A program made the position numbers and the translations under genes. From assembly GCA_004153385.1 (NCBI GenBank), contig SDAL01000001.1:1879492-1943491 (forward strand): a stretch of DNA of 64,000 nt, given 5' to 3'. Shown here in pieces: positions 47,660 through 54,530 of this stretch (position 1 is its first letter; every line of letters begins with the position of its first letter). Below the pieces are notes generated by a model. The model was given only the letters and a program-made list of their open reading frames with translations. It was not told the DNA's origin and searched no databases. The DNA comes from Paracoccaceae bacterium. GTDB taxonomy: Bacteria; Pseudomonadota; Alphaproteobacteria; Rhodobacterales; Rhodobacteraceae.

Positions 47660-48918
47660 CAGGCCACAAGCCTCCCGCGCAGCTCCTCTAGGTCCGGGGC
47701 GGTGCTCACAGGGCCATAAAGGGCCAGCGCGGATTGCCCTGATCCGATCAGACGTGCGCCGAAATCACGCACATCCTGCATCGACACGGCATCGATTTTC
47801 TCTGCGGTTTCTTCCAGCCCGGGCACGCGCCCCCATACGGCAAGATTGCGCGCCATGCGTTCAGCACGGCTTGACGGGCTTTCCAACCCCATCAACATGC
47901 CGGCCTTGATTTGCGCCCGCGCACGGGCGATTTCCACTTCCGACATATCATCGGCGGCCCGTTTCAGCTCGTCCATCGTAATCCCGCAAAGCTGCGAGAT
48001 TTCAGCCGCAGACGTGCCGGCATAGATCGTGACCATGCCCGTATCTTCATAGGCACCGGCCTGCGCAAAGATTGTATAGCACAGGCCCTTTTCTTCACGG
48101 ATTTTCTGGAAAAGACGCGACGACATGCCGCCACCCAACGCGGTGGTATAGACCTGCGCGGCATAAAGATCATGCGAGCGGTAGTTCGGTCCTTCAAGCG
48201 CCAGCGCAAAATGCGCCTGTTCAAGCGTTTTGATCTCGCGCCGTTCGCGACCACGCCAGACAGCCTGCTGGGCGGCCACGTCATTGCGCGGGCGCATGTG
48301 GCCGAAAAGGGTTTCGGCCTGACGCACGATCTTGTCATGATCCACATCACCTGCCGCAGACAGGATCATCTGACCCGGACCGTAATGTTCTTCGACAAAG
48401 CCCGACAGATCCTGACGGCCAAAGCTGGAGACCCGCTCCGACGGGCCAAGGATCGGGCGCCCGATCGCCTGATCGGGATAGGCGGCCTCTTGCAGCCAAT
48501 CGAAAATAATATCGTCCGGCGTGTCGGCGGACTGGCCGATTTCTTGTAAGATCACGCCCCGCTCCACCTCGATCTCGCGCGGATCAAAGACCGGATTCAT
48601 CAAGATATCCCCGATCACCCCGAGCGCCAGCGGCACATCACCGCCCAGCACCCGCGCGTAATAGGCGGTCACCTCGCGCGAGGTATAGGCATTGATATAT
48701 CCGCCCACATCCTCGATGGCCTCGGCAATCTGCAAGGCAGAGCGCGTCTTGGTTCCCTTGAACGCCATATGCTCCAGAAAATGCGCAATGCCGTTTTGCT
48801 CGGGACGTTCGTGACGCCCTCCCGCATTAACCCAAACACCGATTGCTGCAGACGCCATTGACGGCATGCGTTCGGTTACAACACGAAGGCCATTGGGAAG
48901 GGTCGTCATCTCTATCAT
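47659..48918 (-). CDS. M16 family zinc metallopeptidase
   Basis: A 419-residue pitrilysin-family peptidase. The inverted zinc motif HFLEH gives His46, Glu49 and His50, and the third ligand is Glu126 in ILQEIG, at the expected spacing of 76 residues. The family includes mitochondrial processing peptidase and processes peptides of unknown identity in bacteria. No signal peptide is seen. The start overlaps the thrC stop by four bases (ATGA). The order thrC-M16-GNAT is typical of the family. Confidence 0.94.
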   Translation of the reverse strand: MIEMTTLPNGLRVVTERMPSMASAAIGVWVNAGGRHERPEQNGIAHFLEHMAFKGTKTRSALQIAEAIEDVGGYINAYTSREVTAYYARVLGGDVPLALGVIGDILMNPVFDPREIEVERGVILQEIGQSADTPDDIIFDWLQEAAYPDQAIGRPILGPSERVSSFGRQDLSGFVEEHYGPGQMILSAAGDVDHDKIVRQAETLFGHMRPRNDVAAQQAVWRGRERREIKTLEQAHFALALEGPNYRSHDLYAAQVYTTALGGGMSSRLFQKIREEKGLCYTIFAQAGAYEDTGMVTIYAGTSAAEISQLCGITMDELKRAADDMSEVEIARARAQIKAGMLMGLESPSSRAERMARNLAVWGRVPGLEETAEKIDAVSMQDVRDFGARLIGSGQSALALYGPVSTAPDLEELRGRLVA

Positions 48919-50318
48919 GCGCGGCGTCTTTCTTTAATCATGGTTTCCAGTGCAGCCAGATCGTTGGGCACGCGCGTCATCCGCTCTTCGCGCTCAAACA
49001 GATCGGCCATGCGCGGTGGCAGCGCAGGGCGCAGGCCCGAGGCTTTTTCCACCGCGTCGGGGAATTTGGCAGGATGGGCGGTTGCAAGCGTCACCATCAC
49101 CGTGGCCGGATCGCGCGCCTGCGCATCCTCGGCCACACCGACACCCACCGCCGAATGCGGGCACAACAACTCGCCCGTGGTCTCGTAGGTGCGGGCAATC
49201 ACCTCCAGCGTACGGGCTTCATCCACCGACCCGCTGTCATAATGCGCCCGAAGCGCGCCCATTGCGTTCTCAGAGATATTGAAACTGCCGGTGGTTTTCA
49301 GCTCGTCCATCAATTGCGATACCGCCTTGCCATCCCGGCCATACGCCCAAAACAACGCGCGCTCGAAATTGGAACTGACCTCGATATCCATCGAGGGGCT
49401 CATCGAGGCTGTCACACCGCGTTTGGTATAGTCGCCTGCTTTCAAACAGCGATCAAGGATATCATTGTGGTTTGTCGCAATCACCAGACGTTCGACCGGC
49501 AGGCCCATTTCCTTGGCCAGAAAGCCTGCGAAAATATCGCCGAAATTGCCGGTAGGCACAGAAAATGACACAGGCCGTCCGGGCGCACCAAGGCTGAGGG
49601 CGGCGGTAAAGTAATACACGATCTGCGCCAGAACCCGCGCGAAGTTGATCGAGTTGACCCCCGCCAAACCGACCTCGTCACGGAAATCGAAATCGTTGAA
49701 CATGTCTTTCAGCTTGGCTTGGCAATCGTCGAAATCACCCTCCAGCGCGAACGCATGCACATTGGCCTCGACCGGCGTGGTCATCTGGCGGCGCTGCACC
49801 TCGGACACACGTCCATGCGGAAACAGGATAAACACATCGACATTATCAAGCCCACGGAACGCCTCGATCGCAGCAGATCCGGTATCACCCGAGGTGGCCC
49901 CCACAATCGTAACCTTCTGGTCGCGCCGTTTCAGTTCGATCTGGAACAGCTGGCCGATCACCTGCATCGCGAAATCCTTGAACGCAAGCGTGGGGCCGTG
50001 AAACAGTTCCAGCAGGAAATGGTTCGGGCCAAGCTGCGTAAGCGGCGCACGGGCGATATGGCCGAAGCCTGCATAGGCGCGCGTGATGGCCCCTTGCAGT
50101 TCCTCGTCCGAAAACGTTTCGGACACAAACGGCTTCATCACCCGAAAAGCCACCTCCTCGTAGGACAATCCCGCCATTGCGGCGATCTCCTCGGGGGAAA
50201 ACTGCGGCACGGTTTCGGGCACATACAGTCCGCCATCACGGGCAAGGCCTGTCAGCATCGCGTCGCCAAAGCTCAATGCCGGGGCCTCTCCCCGGGTCGA
50301 AATATAACGCATGGTCAT
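48915..50318 (-). CDS. thrC: Threonine synthase
   Basis: A 467-residue PLP enzyme that makes threonine from O-phosphohomoserine. The PLP lysine is Lys114 in LAFKDFAMQV. The N-terminus MRYISTRGEAPALSFGDAML and the phosphate-binding VGATSGDTGSAAIEAFRG are characteristic of the long form. AAGGAA precedes the ATG. It sits 12 nt downstream of SURF1, with which it is probably co-transcribed. Confidence 0.96.
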   Translation of the reverse strand: MTMRYISTRGEAPALSFGDAMLTGLARDGGLYVPETVPQFSPEEIAAMAGLSYEEVAFRVMKPFVSETFSDEELQGAITRAYAGFGHIARAPLTQLGPNHFLLELFHGPTLAFKDFAMQVIGQLFQIELKRRDQKVTIVGATSGDTGSAAIEAFRGLDNVDVFILFPHGRVSEVQRRQMTTPVEANVHAFALEGDFDDCQAKLKDMFNDFDFRDEVGLAGVNSINFARVLAQIVYYFTAALSLGAPGRPVSFSVPTGNFGDIFAGFLAKEMGLPVERLVIATNHNDILDRCLKAGDYTKRGVTASMSPSMDIEVSSNFERALFWAYGRDGKAVSQLMDELKTTGSFNISENAMGALRAHYDSGSVDEARTLEVIARTYETTGELLCPHSAVGVGVAEDAQARDPATVMVTLATAHPAKFPDAVEKASGLRPALPPRMADLFEREERMTRVPNDLAALETMIKERRRA

Positions 50319-50330
50319 TCCTTCGGTTCG

Positions 50331-50999
50331 TCAGGGCCTGATACGCCACAGAACGCCTGCTGTCATCCCTGCCCATGCGATTGCCATGAAAATCCACGCA
50401 ATCGCATAAGACATGTGTTTATTCGGTATGCCCGTCACGGCGACAGGCCTGAGGGCGACATCCTGCACATCGCCGCGAATGGCGCGTGCCACCACCAAAA
50501 CGGGCTCTGTCCGCAGAGCGGCGGCCATTTCGGGCACATCGCGGGCAAACCACATATTGGCGACCATATCAGGGGCGGCGGTGTAGGCGTCCGCCTCCTG
50601 CGGCCAGCGCAGATTGCCCGTCACAATCATTGCCGTGGGGGGACGGGGGTCATGGCGCGCGCCGTCGGGCACGATGCCACGATCCACAAGAACGCGCCGT
50701 TTATCGCCCGTCTCGAACGCAGAGACCACATGATAGACCGCCTCGCCGTCTTGCGCGCCGCCCAGCACCAACAACTCCTGTCCCGTGGTACCACCGACGA
50801 TCTGAACGCCGGTATAATCCAGTTCCGGTCCTATCGCCTCCTTGGCGGGCAGATCATCGGCAGGCAAGGCAAGCAGACGTGCGATATGATCGATGTGGCG
50901 CGCCGTGGACTGTGCCCGCTGCGCTTGCTCTATGGCGAGGGTGCAAAACAGGCCCACGCCCAACAGACCGACTATCAACGGTGCAACATATCGTTTCAA
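50331..50999 (-). CDS. SURF1 family cytochrome oxidase assembly factor, TTG start
   Basis: A 222-residue protein with two membrane segments, one at residues 5-24 (VAPLIVGLLGVGLFCTLAIE) and one near the C-terminus (AIAWIFMAIAWAGMTAGVLW), joined by a periplasmic domain. It contains the SURF1 features VLVDRGIVP and NKHMSYAIAW. SURF1 supports haem a insertion into aa3 oxidase. I place the start at a TTG (50999) preceded by AGGGA, giving MKRYVAPLIVG as in homologues. The frame stays open to 51281 over sequence that does not resemble the family. In Paracoccus the equivalent gene closes the ctaC-ctaB-ctaG-ctaE operon; here ctaG and ctaE are missing upstream. Confidence 0.85.
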   Translation of the reverse strand: MKRYVAPLIVGLLGVGLFCTLAIEQAQRAQSTARHIDHIARLLALPADDLPAKEAIGPELDYTGVQIVGGTTGQELLVLGGAQDGEAVYHVVSAFETGDKRRVLVDRGIVPDGARHDPRPPTAMIVTGNLRWPQEADAYTAAPDMVANMWFARDVPEMAAALRTEPVLVVARAIRGDVQDVALRPVAVTGIPNKHMSYAIAWIFMAIAWAGMTAGVLWRIRP

Positions 51000-51306
51000 A
51001 ACCACATTCCCTGACCTGATCCTACGGGCACCCTGATCGCGCGAACCGGCCTGTAGGCCAGCCCAGATATAGCGCGCCCGTGCCAGATACAGGTTCAATA
51101 AGTCGCGAACAACCAAGGCGACGGTGCGCAGTCGTGCGGCATGCGCACCCTGCCCTACCCTTCGCCTCACCCGCGCCCGCCAAGAACAAGAGCGGGCCCT
51201 GAGGGGCCGGGCGTTATCGTCACTGCTCACAGAAGGGGCATCACATCCACGCCGGAAAGCCCTTCGCCACAGGCGGGCCAATTCCTACGATTATTGCGGC
51301 GCGGGG
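51000..51306. other. 307-nt gap where ctaG and ctaE would be expected
   Basis: This lies between the CoxF-like gene and SURF1. I find no intact gene. An open minus frame runs into SURF1 from 51281 but has an Arg-rich, unstructured composition. Another minus frame contains NWPACGEGL before an early stop, faintly like the zinc knuckle of DUF983 proteins found in this operon elsewhere; this is weak. Confidence 0.5.
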
Positions 51307-51510
51307 TTACAGCTGCGCGACGGAAGCCTCAGGCCTTGTCGCGCCCTCGCTCCGGGGCAAGCGGGCGCCCTCATGCTGACTGACAGCCTCGGAAATCTTT
51401 ACCACGCTCAAGGCAAACACCAGCAGGCAGAGCGCCGCAAGGACAAGCCCCAGCCCAAGATTGCGTGAAAACCGGCGGCGATGCAGATCATGTTCGTGAT
51501 GAGGCCCCAT
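51307..51510 (-). CDS. Small CoxF-like single-pass membrane protein
   Basis: A 67-residue protein with the layout [19 protein letters not shown], one membrane helix ([19 protein letters not shown]), then a polar tail. This matches the short proteins found between ctaB and ctaG in alphaproteobacterial cytochrome oxidase operons (often called CoxF). The ATG at 51510 overlaps the ctaB stop as TGATG; a start three codons earlier at 51519 is possible. Its presence confirms that the original operon structure was the cta type. Confidence 0.68.
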
Positions 51511-52457
51511 CACATCCATCCCAGCGCGGCGTACCCATCCCAGAAGCTAAGGCCCTTTTCGGCCAGCAGTGCCAAGAAATGCCCGAACAGATACAGCAAC
51601 GAGAAATAGAAGTAGCGTTTTTCCACGCGGTAGCCGTCTGCCACGGCCGCCGCCTCCTGACGGCGCCAGATGACCCATCCGCCGTGTATGAAGATCGCGT
51701 TCAGCACAACAGCCACAGCCAGATAGACCGGTCCGCCAATGCTGGTGAAAGCCGTGCCTACGGCGACAGGGGCCAAAATCAACGCATAGGCCAGAATGTG
51801 GCGCCGCGTGACTGTGCGACCATGTGTCACGGTCAGCATCGGCACGCCAGCGTTGGAATAGTCGCTTTTCATGAACAACGCGAGGGCCCAGAAATGCGGC
51901 GGGGTCCATAGAAAGACGACCATAAACATGGCAATCGATTCGATGGACACGCTGCCTGTCGCGACCGCCCAGCCGATCATCGGGGGGAACGCGCCTGCCG
52001 CCCCGCCGATCACGATATTCTGCGGCGTCGACCGTTTGAGCCACATCGTGTAGACAACGGCATAGAAAAAGATGGTGAACGCCAGAAACAGCCCCGCGAA
52101 CACATTTGACGCCAGCGCCAGCATCACACATGAAATCCCCGCAAGCCCCAAACCGAAGCCCAGTGCCTCGCCCTCGCTCACACGGCCCGCAGGGATCGGG
52201 CGCGATTGCGTGCGCTTCATTACGCGGTCTATATCCGCATCATACCACATGTTCAGCGCGCCAGAGGCTCCGCCGCCCAAGGCTATGAAAAGAATAGAAA
52301 TAGCTCCAACCAATGGGTGCACCTGAACAGGGGCGACCACCAGCCCCACAAAGGCGGTGAAAACCACAAGCGACATCACCCGCGGCTTTAACAGCGCGAT
52401 AAAATCGTTGAATTGCGCCTCTTGTTGCTGTGGCTCTGCGTAGCCGATATCGCTCAT
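51510..52457 (-). CDS. ctaB: Protohaem IX farnesyltransferase (haem O synthase)
   Basis: A 315-residue UbiA-family membrane enzyme that farnesylates haem b to haem o, the precursor of haem a. It has about eight to nine hydrophobic segments, the Asp-rich site [19 protein letters not shown] near residue 90 and a second polar loop [15 protein letters not shown] near residue 200. It starts the minus-strand run ctaB-coxF-SURF1-thrC-M16-GNAT. The oxidase subunit II gene ctaC, which normally lies directly upstream, is not present in the 651-nt gap before tldD. Confidence 0.94.
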
Positions 52458-53108
52458 CTGGGCATTCCGTTGTTGTCACTGCATCATGCGACTTGGTGAG
52501 ATGCCACATCCGCCTGATTGGGGCGGTGTCGTGCGGCAAAGGGGTCGCGTCCCGTGTTCCGGCCAGCCAGCGTAATCTGCGCGGCGATGCCCCCTGAAGA
52601 GGGGATGCCGTTATGGTGTGGGGCGCACGGTCAGATTACACCTCATCCGCCTGCCCCTGAAGCACAATCACGCGATCCTGCCCGAAACGAGGTTCTCATT
52701 AACCGCAAAGCCCCGTCTCGTCCATCACGTGATAACGCCCGCCCTGTCCGCGTCTGCCATTTGCGGCAGCCACAGTCCTTGAGGACACTCCCCCCTGTCC
52801 GTCTCATGCGTCTGCCGCGTGATGCTGGCAGAGGACCGGCGCGCATTGCCGGTGTGCATGGCCGGCGTGCATGGCCACTGGCTGCCACGCGCCCCCTGCT
52901 GTGTCCCGGCAATGTGGTCCCCGTGTGGCGCCCCCTGCCCCCAACGGGGACCAACGCCCCCCGGCCGCTGGCGGGCGCCGCTTGCATATTGACGATGGGG
53001 ACCGCATATCGATCCCATACCCGCCTGCCATAGTCCCCATGCTGGCGCGGCGCGCCATACCGGCTTAGTATCGCGTGAAATTATGAACACCCAATGAAAG
53101 GAAACCCG
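52458..53108. other. 651-nt gene-free region between ctaB and tldD
   Basis: This is a divergent gap that holds no convincing gene on either strand. The open frames present are Arg/Gly/Pro-rich and carry neither the copper CuA motif nor the two N-terminal helices expected of cytochrome oxidase subunit II. It contains a 13-nt tandem repeat and several short GC-rich palindromic stretches (for example CCCCTGAAGAGGGG near 52591). Promoters for ctaB and tldD must lie here; a weak candidate for tldD is TTGCAT-N17-CATATC near 52982. Confidence 0.6.
52848..52873. repeat. 13-nt tandem repeat in the ctaB-tldD gap
   Basis: GCCGGTGTGCATG at 52848-52860 is followed directly by GCCGGCGTGCATG at 52861-52873 (one mismatch). 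Confidence 0.85.
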
Positions 53109-54530
53109 ATGAGCGAGGATCGTTTCGCCCCCTTCGAAACTCAACTCGACGAGGCGGCCGCGCTTTCGGTGCTGCGCGAGGCCACCGAGGGTGCCGATGA
53201 TGGCGAATTGTTTTTAGAGCGCCGCCGTTCCGAGGCATTGGTGTTTGACGATGGCCGCGTCAAAACGGCCAGCTACGACGCATCGGAAGGGTTCGGCCTG
53301 CGTGCGGTGCGTGGCGAGGTTGCAGGCTATGCGCATTCCACCGAGTTGAGCGAGAGCGCGCTGCGCCGCGCGGCGGACACGGCGCGTCTGGCGGTGGGTC
53401 AGGGCGGCGGCGTGATGGCACCGCCACCTGCGGGCACAAACCGGCATCTTTATGCCGCAACCGACCCGATGCGCGATGCGAGCTTTGCCGACAAGATCGA
53501 TATCTTGAAGGAAATCGATGCCTACGCCCGCGATCTGGATCCGAATGTGGTTCAGGTGTCCGCCTCCATGGCCGCGAGCCTGCAAGAGGTGTTCATCCTG
53601 CGCCCCGAAGGCGGGCTGGCAAGCGACATCCGCCCGATGGCACGGCTTAATGTCTCGGTGATCGTCGAGGAAAACGGACAGCGGGAATCGGGCAGCAGCG
53701 GCAGTGGTGGCCGCTATGGGCTGATCGGGCTGATCAGTGCCGAAAACTGGAAGCCTGCGATCAGGGAGGCGCTGCGTATCGCACGGGTCAATCTGCGCGC
53801 CGAGGCCGCGCCCGCGGGCCAGTTTGATGTGGTGCTGGGCCCTGGTTGGCCGGGTGTGCTGCTGCACGAGGCCGTGGGCCACGGTCTGGAGGGCGATTTC
53901 AACCGCAAGAAATCATCGGCTTTCTCGGGCCTTATGGGCAAACAGGTTGCCGCCAAAGGGGTTACCGTTCTGGATGATGGCACCATCCCCGACAGACGCG
54001 GCTCGCTGACGATTGATGACGAAGGCACCCCATCGGCCAAGAACGTCCTGATTGAGGATGGCGTGCTGGTAGGGTTCATGCAAGATCGCCAGAATGCCAG
54101 ACTGATGGGGGCCTTGCCCACCGGAAACGGACGGCGCGAAAGCTTTGCGCATGTGCCGATGCCACGGATGACAAACACCTATATGCTGGGGGGGGACGCG
54201 TCGCCCGCCGATATTCTGGCCGATCTGGCAGACGGGATCTATGCCGTGGGATTTGGCGGTGGTCAGGTCGATATTACCAACGGCAAGTTCGTGTTCAACT
54301 GCACCGAAGCCTATCGCGTGAAAAACGGTGTGGTCGGTGCGCCGGTCAAGGGCGCAACCCTTATTGGCGACGGCCCCACAGCCATGCGCCAGATCCGCGC
54401 CATCGGCAATGATCTTGCACTGGATCCGGGCATTGGCAACTGCGGCAAACAGGGCCAGTGGGTGCCTGTGGGTGTGGGCCAGCCTACGTTGATGATTGGC
54501 GGGCTTACAGTGGGTGGCTCTGCGACCTGA
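53109..54530 (+). CDS. tldD: Metalloprotease TldD
   Basis: A 473-residue TldD-type peptidase. The zinc motif HEAVGHGLEGDF has His253, Glu254 and His258, and the distal Cys of GNCGKQGQ completes the site. With TldE/PmbA it forms a heterodimer that degrades unfolded peptides and processes microcin-like precursors; the partner gene is not in this window. The ATG at 53109 has AAAGGA six nt upstream, whereas the ATG at 53094 overlaps that site. It is divergent from ctaB and followed by a hairpin. Confidence 0.95.
   Translation: MSEDRFAPFETQLDEAAALSVLREATEGADDGELFLERRRSEALVFDDGRVKTASYDASEGFGLRAVRGEVAGYAHSTELSESALRRAADTARLAVGQGGGVMAPPPAGTNRHLYAATDPMRDASFADKIDILKEIDAYARDLDPNVVQVSASMAASLQEVFILRPEGGLASDIRPMARLNVSVIVEENGQRESGSSGSGGRYGLIGLISAENWKPAIREALRIARVNLRAEAAPAGQFDVVLGPGWPGVLLHEAVGHGLEGDFNRKKSSAFSGLMGKQVAAKGVTVLDDGTIPDRRGSLTIDDEGTPSAKNVLIEDGVLVGFMQDRQNARLMGALPTGNGRRESFAHVPMPRMTNTYMLGGDASPADILADLADGIYAVGFGGGQVDITNGKFVFNCTEAYRVKNGVVGAPVKGATLIGDGPTAMRQIRAIGNDLALDPGIGNCGKQGQWVPVGVGQPTLMIGGLTVGGSAT

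Follow-up and report, generated by a model that had tools for sequence, protein, structure and literature searches.

The aa3-type cytochrome c oxidase of Paracoccus denitrificans is encoded by a ctaC-ctaB-ctaG-ctaE-surf1 operon and a separate ctaD gene. The review PMC9145763 describes CtaB as making haem O, which CtaA converts to haem A, and distinguishes in this species a Surf1c for the aa3 oxidase from a Surf1q for the ba3 oxidase; it also reports that E. coli cyoABCD in P. denitrificans gives a ba3 enzyme and that a Cyo enzyme can carry haem A. Here we examine the counterpart of the aa3 operon in a stretch of 64,000 nucleotides (hereafter, the window) from a Paracoccaceae bacterium (assembly GCA_004153385.1, contig SDAL01000001.1, positions 1,879,492 to 1,943,491). 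The window shares with P. denitrificans the order of the surviving genes, the coxF-like gene and the thrC flank; whereas the P. denitrificans locus (L043) carries ctaC, ctaG, ctaE and surf1, the window holds only a relic of ctaC, and ctaG and ctaE are gone. The genome to which the window belongs (G000; 3.77 Mb in 9 contigs, 99.99% complete, the window lying on a contig of 2.07 Mb) forms with G006 and G007 a trio of species-level genomes within our set of 16 Thioclava genomes. We consider it likely that the aa3 oxidase was lost in this trio, that ctaB was kept for a Cyo quinol oxidase, and that a diverged orphan ctaD, located outside the window, was kept as a repurposed haem protein.

An aa3 operon without its subunit genes

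The surviving genes lie on the minus strand upstream of thrC in the order ctaB, coxF-like open reading frame (ORF), surf1, between two conserved flanks (lengths in amino acids, aa):

48915..50318, minus strand: thrC, conserved flank (synteny).
50331..50999, minus strand: surf1 at the surf1c position, diverged, with a TTG start at 50999 or a GTG at 51005 (Pfam SURF1, 84.8 bits, above the cut-off of 23.4).
51000..51306, minus strand: gap, occupied by ctaG and ctaE in 13 of the 16 genus genomes (synteny).
51307..51519, minus strand: coxF-like gene for a small membrane protein of 70 aa, fast evolving (tblastn to coxF of T. pacifica, G010).
51510..52457, minus strand: ctaB, haem O synthase, 315 aa, ATG start (TIGR01473, 319.6 bits, above the cut-off of 210.3).
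52656..52742, minus strand: decayed ctaC fragment with two in-frame stops, in ancestral position and orientation (tblastn, hmmsearch, nhmmer).
53094..54530, plus strand: gene that we take to be tldD-like (putative metalloprotease), conserved flank on the other side (synteny).

An earlier note on this DNA, made from its letters alone, had placed ctaB, a coxF-like gene and SURF1 in their usual order beside thrC, with which both coordinates and family scores agree. It had also proposed a synteny comparison, and this locates the loss in the trio: the other 13 genomes of the genus carry the complete locus, ctaC-ctaB-coxF-ctaG-ctaE-surf1-thrC. The same genes prevail in more distant relatives. Among the best 80 of 591 named relatives retrieved by ctaB similarity, comprising isolates and metagenome bins, tblastn found ctaC in 80, ctaG in 78, ctaE in 77, surf1 in 76 and coxF in 75. 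Where ctaG, ctaE or surf1 is missed, the contig is short and breaks off a little way past ctaB (L021, L045, L064, L074).

The earlier note held ctaC, ctaG and ctaE to be absent. An initial tblastn of the locus at an E threshold of 0.01 likewise gave none of the three. The absence stands for ctaG and ctaE, and overlooks a decayed fragment of ctaC. The 638 bases ahead of ctaB contain 87 bases that match ctaC codons ~205-233 by tblastn with two queries (E 1e-4 and 2e-4), by protein profile (hmmsearch, E 4.6e-5) and by DNA profile (nhmmer, E 7.8e-6). None of 1000 dinucleotide shuffles reached its score with either query, while 763 and 778 of the shuffles gave any match at all, and in all 19 ctaC genes compared 47-58 of the 87 bases are identical to the relic. 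Its nonsynonymous divergence (dN) from 13 ctaC genes of the genus is 0.36-0.39, against 0.00-0.07 between intact genes in the same codons (three pairs); the value of 0.36 is a lower bound, coming from the 29 best-preserved codons, and is unsuited to dating the loss. No comparable trace of ctaG or ctaE was found in the gap at 51000..51306 (best E 0.14; nothing by profile searches), and across six gaps in the three genomes the lowest E value was 0.016.

The possibility that the subunit genes had moved elsewhere, also raised in the earlier note, was rejected by family searches of the whole G000 genome, which find no relocated ctaC, ctaE or ctaG. There is no Cox11/CtaG match in any part of it; its sole COX3 match lies within the cyo operon, leaving no aa3 subunit III; and its sole COX2 match, a weak one, is CyoA, leaving no CuA-type subunit II. 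The COX2 search, extended to G006 and G007, found no CuA-type protein there either, with only a weak match in the cyo region of G007 and none at E 0.001 in G006. An assembly collapse, by which the note allowed that its observation might be refuted, is very unlikely given the 2.07 Mb contig, the same loss in G006 and G007 and the presence of the ctaC relic. The comparison indicates instead that the operon has been emptied by decay and deletion, not by relocation, and not recently as the note had considered, because the loss is common to three species-level genomes and the relic is heavily mutated.

The haem O synthase and its probable client

The G000 genome carries a cyo operon composed of cyoA, cyoB, cyoC and a cyoD-like ORF (recognised by position only), followed by a surf1 gene. 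CyoB (1075 bits, TIGR02843, cut-off 1020.35) and CyoA (310.8 bits, TIGR01433, cut-off 266.2) both score above their thresholds, and matches of the Cyo proteins to the narrower PRK models NF007816 and NF011592 remain below theirs. Compared with described bo3/ba3 systems, the downstream surf1 of this operon recalls the Surf1q of P. denitrificans as presented in PMC9145763, whereas no cyoE was found within the G000 cyo operon, so that haem must come from the ctaB of the window. Apart from the latter, no gene in G000 matches haem O synthase strongly, the runner-up having 28% identity and 35.6 bits. With a cyo operon in the genome and no further strong ctaB match, CtaB would keep a client, and the proposal that the window ctaB serves the Cyo quinol oxidase is well supported. 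For ctaB, this agrees with one of the options of the earlier note, that the accessory genes had come to work for a different haem-copper oxidase, and dispels its puzzle of assembly factors retained without a client, Cyo being that client.

For ctaB, the ratio of nonsynonymous to synonymous divergence (dN/dS) is 0.04 between G006 and G007 and 0.12 and 0.14 between G000 and these two, compared with 0.07-0.10 in three other pairs of the genus, which indicates that the gene is under strong purifying selection. A ctaA gene is present elsewhere in G000. A spectroscopic measurement of haem a, suggested in the earlier note, would not discriminate between the possibilities, because ctaA is present and a Cyo enzyme can carry haem A.

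The CyoB proteins of the trio and of G012, a Thioclava genome with a complete aa3 operon, are 80-95% identical to one another and 47-50% identical to those of G002, G008 and G009, and form a lineage of their own. Their cyo loci (L005, L122, L125, L130) carry the downstream surf1, for which a search of three further cyo loci (L135, L136, L139) gave no counterpart. This separate Cyo lineage with its surf1 suggests an oxidase exchange that preceded the loss of aa3.

The other two survivors of the operon have fared differently. The statement in the earlier note that these genes are intact and have good starts holds for ctaB and was generous for surf1, which in G000 lacks an ATG start, shares 48% identity with the T. 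pacifica protein (64% for that of G012) and does not preserve the N-terminal W-Q motif, its W being replaced by E while all six other sequences compared have it. The dN/dS of surf1 is 0.25 between G000 and G012 and 0.11-0.19 in four other pairs. In G006 and G007, all of surf1 but its 3' end has been deleted; a DNA profile locates this end before thrC (E 7.4e-7 and 1.2e-4). The coxF-like ORF has no match in Pfam or NCBIfam; it is 53% identical to T. pacifica coxF over residues 1-39 (tblastn), and its dN/dS is 0.38 from G000 to G006 and 0.76 to G007.

A diverged orphan ctaD at the ancestral locus

The whole-genome search that the earlier note had proposed, empty for ctaC, ctaE and ctaG, recovered besides ctaA a gene unforeseen by that note, a diverged ctaD standing alone. 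This second COX1-family match of G000 encodes a protein of 567 aa (366 bits), and its counterparts in G006 and G007 have 509 aa and ~516 aa. The order lipB-cycA-ctaD is found in all 11 genomes examined, for the diverged copies of the trio and canonical genes alike, and yqeY and carA follow ctaD in ten of them, G012 being the exception; by this synteny, the orphan gene is an ortholog of canonical ctaD at its ancestral locus. Directly after canonical ctaD, all eight aa3-positive genomes of the genus considered carry a gene for a DUF2244 membrane protein (PF10003; for example, L126:4891-5427), which is absent from the ctaD locus of the trio (L006, L120, L123; only this locus was examined, with no genome-wide search). 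The DUF2244 protein is a candidate for a factor that helps to assemble or stabilise aa3.

The best solved match of the G000 orphan is the P. denitrificans CtaD, an A1-type aa3 subunit I (1ar1 chain A, against which our residue numbering was checked; E 7.8e-212, aligned end to end over 1-557). All three orphans nevertheless fall under the NCBIfam CtaD_CoxA cut-off of 670.75 bits (524.2, 448.2 and 455.1). A set of 13 canonical CtaDs (those of G075 and G151 and 11 Thioclava proteins, with G004 and G015 left out) has 407 invariant columns; every orphan preserves the residue in 170 of them, and none does in 96. What they keep from the P. denitrificans protein is H94, H276, Y280, H411, H413, R54 and R473, in every one of the three. 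We take H94 and H413 to be ligands of haem a and H411 to be that of haem a3. Of the six histidines that bind haem a, haem a3 and CuB, each orphan keeps five and lacks one CuB ligand, H325 in G000 and H326 in G006 and G007, each replaced by Tyr. The K-channel residue K354 is Ile in all three, the D-channel residue D124 has become Asn, Glu and Glu, and N113, S193, D404 and W164 have been lost as well; H403 is Ala in G006 and G007 and uncertain in G000 owing to an insertion. As a further difference from the 1ar1 protein, no partner subunits were found.

Retention is very uneven along the protein (chi-square P 7e-8). With segment limits that are approximate, 15 of 19 invariant residues persist in all three orphans in helix X, which bears haem ligands, and 13 of 17 in helix XI, as against none of 15 in the III-IV loop, none of 19 in the V-VI loop and 6 of 29 in the K-channel helix. 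Most invariant residues have disappeared from three inter-helix loops, among which III-IV and V-VI presumably face subunit II. From this pattern, it is hard to see the orphan CtaD acting as a cytochrome c oxidase that pumps protons; it very probably still binds haem and is probably copper-less. That an undetected subunit II, or CyoA, serves it so that an aa3-like oxidase still runs is highly improbable: ctaD and ctaA have indeed been kept, as has surf1 in G000, but there is no CuA-type COX2 match, and CuB-ligand, proton-channel and loop residues have been lost.

A continuing reduction of O2 or NO at a metal site of two His and one Tyr replacing CuB, with electrons received straight from cytochrome c550, also appears improbable, if less so. 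It would fit the His to Tyr change at adjacent ligand positions in both lineages, the retention of H276, Y280 and the haem ligands, and the cycA gene still adjacent; against it stand the missing CuA subunit, the loss of K354 and the change of D124 in all three proteins, and E278 being Q in G006. The nitric oxide reductases (NORs), whose NorB belongs to the same superfamily, offer no better match. According to PMC3084760, they have no CuB in the active site, carry the motifs H-X-Arom-X-E and H-H-X-Arom-Arom-X17-E and have no cross-linked Tyr; the orphan CtaD does not match these motifs, breaks the H-H pair and retains Y280, the Tyr that NORs lack, and thus falls outside the NORs.

Horizontal replacement of ctaD was rejected, as the gene occupies the same locus and G000 CtaD is more similar to five CtaDs of the genus (58-60% identity) than to those of G075 and G151 (55-56%). 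The CtaD tree places the long trio branch beside G075 and G151 with a support of 0.18, which we have taken for long-branch attraction. Relatives of the G006 orphan sought in plasmids gave 907 records, all below 60% identity, the best listed having 50.8%.

Selection on the orphan gene

Between G006 and G007, orphan ctaD has a synonymous divergence (dS) of 0.88, a dN of 0.12 and a dN/dS of 0.137 (95% bootstrap interval 0.103-0.182). Canonical ctaD genes have 0.04-0.07 in four within-genus pairs, and 0.068 and 0.145 in two cross-genus pairs. Most likely the divergence between G006 and G007 took place after inactivation, because the losses of K354 and of the CuB ligand are common to this pair. When the orphan ORF was simulated under neutrality (uniform mutation, 0.44 substitutions/site, 500 runs), 3-23 stops arose, whereas none is observed. 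The GC content of the gene at third codon positions (GC3) resembles that of others in the same genome. These values indicate that, in G006 and G007, orphan ctaD is not a pseudogene and experiences real, though weaker, purifying selection.

Several observations weigh against a new function. The dN/dS of orphan ctaD in G006-G007 is 3-4 times, and its dN 5-7 times, that of ctaB, thrC and tldD, whose dN/dS is ~0.04; in comparisons with G000 its dN/dS reaches 0.29-0.31, values that are imprecise because dS is high; and one canonical cross-genus pair, G010-G151, likewise reaches 0.145. Constraint thus appears relaxed, and slow loss is possible. The CuB histidine lost is not the same in the two lineages, which relaxed drift would explain as readily as a new function. 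Changes confined to single lineages occur near the haems (R474H and S46A in G000, E278Q in G006), no partner subunits were found for the orphan protein, and the ctaC relic is compatible with one ancestral loss or with two.

A dN/dS 3-4 times that of ctaB, thrC and tldD would be expected if orphan ctaD were a slowly dying remnant, with ctaB kept for Cyo and nothing new arisen, as would active-site losses that differ between lineages, the piecemeal loss of surf1 and ctaC and the fast evolution of the coxF-like gene. We nonetheless regard this explanation as rather unlikely, though the most serious competitor: the dN/dS of 0.14 in G006-G007 holds despite CuB and K-channel losses already common to the pair, three long ORFs have stayed free of stops with GC3 close to other genes, and all axial haem ligands are kept while retention varies strongly along the protein.

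In the explanation that we favour, the ancestor of the trio would have lost aa3, ctaC decaying or being deleted and ctaG, ctaE and the DUF2244 gene disappearing, and most of surf1 would have gone too in two of the three genomes. CtaB would have been retained as the haem O synthase of the cell, feeding Cyo with haem O directly or with haem A via CtaA, and ctaD would have been retained, as a lone protein, beside the cytochrome c550 gene (cycA). The orphan CtaD would be a haem protein of the membrane that has been preserved for a different task, and most likely has a new function; as a best guess, it would most plausibly sense redox state or a gas (O2/NO), or engage in one-electron transfer with c550. 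For the more specific proposition that a subunit I without CuB site, proton channels and partners has become a free-standing membrane haem protein with a newly selected function of this sort, as redox or gas sensor or c550 electron carrier, we see the chances as evenly balanced.

Number of losses and distribution in the family

Eight flanking proteins were combined in one tree (24 taxa, 3416 columns), with coverage ranging from all 24 taxa down to 9 and 8 for the two least covered proteins. In this tree, G000, G006 and G007 form a clade with an ultrafast bootstrap of 100, next to which stands G012 (bootstrap 100). An earlier tree of thrC and tldD had left the position of G012 relative to G000 unresolved (support 0.32), which the eight-protein set resolved. 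A single ancestral loss of aa3 would be the simplest history, two losses being also possible. Three independent losses are disfavoured by the clade support of 100 together with 23 identical derived residues common to the CtaDs of the trio, because of which the change of CtaD would have had a shared start, seemingly before the two lineages lost different CuB histidines.

Cox11 is missing in 3 of the 16 genus genomes, those of the trio, and in 7 of 296 genomes of a family sample, G000 being one of the seven (G006 and G007 lie outside the sample). The other six were searched for COX1 and COX2: G109, G219 and G294 have no COX2 and have COX1 matches only in classes of ~390 and ~260 bits, the former being the score class of the cbb3-type of the genus, assigned by score alone; G137 has two CyoB-like proteins and further pieces; and G075 and G151 keep canonical CtaD and CtaC. 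The diverged orphan ctaD occurs, among the Cox11-less genomes examined, only in the Thioclava trio (Cox11-bearing genomes outside the genus were unscreened). G000 has exactly two COX1-family matches, CyoB and the orphan CtaD, and no cbb3-type COX1; it seems to be without any cytochrome c oxidase. A COX1 class of ~395 bits is present in G006 and G007, which we take for ccoN from ccoP-like neighbours recognised by eye.

Three further genomes presented unusual oxidase loci. In G151 (L193:5266-9068), the order is ctaC-ctaB-coxF-ctaE-surf1, ctaG being absent between coxF and ctaE, and the genome has no Cox11 match (PF04442) though its canonical CtaD has all CuB ligands. G075 (L194) has ctaC and a canonical ctaD and likewise no Cox11 match; its contig stops inside ctaB, and an assembly gap is possible. 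G009 (C2:105334-106396) contains COX1 fragments, one broken by TAG, ~2.4 kb from a full-length COX1 of quinol-oxidase type, apparently the remains of a decaying extra oxidase.

Implications

In searches of the open-licence literature, several of them narrow, no paper was found that by title or abstract describes an orphan subunit I preserved by selection after losing its CuB triad, and passages of a Thioclava proteogenomic study (PMC8215760) contain nothing on orphan ctaD. Similar proteins may have been overlooked, because one oxidase census (PMC3084760) discarded sequences without all six histidine ligands.

The loss of an aa3 oxidase together with assembly genes is ordinary. What is unusual is that selection would maintain a bare catalytic subunit that has neither partners nor an intact copper site; to our knowledge, a free-standing “pseudo-oxidase” of this type would be the first of its kind. 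The trio also shows how assembly factors split according to their client, ctaB following Cyo while Cox11 and, at the ctaD loci checked, the DUF2244 protein follow aa3, with surf1c kept in one of the three genomes. Orphan CtaD would represent a natural experiment that tells the parts of subunit I needed for folding around haem from those needed for catalysis and the docking of the other subunits.

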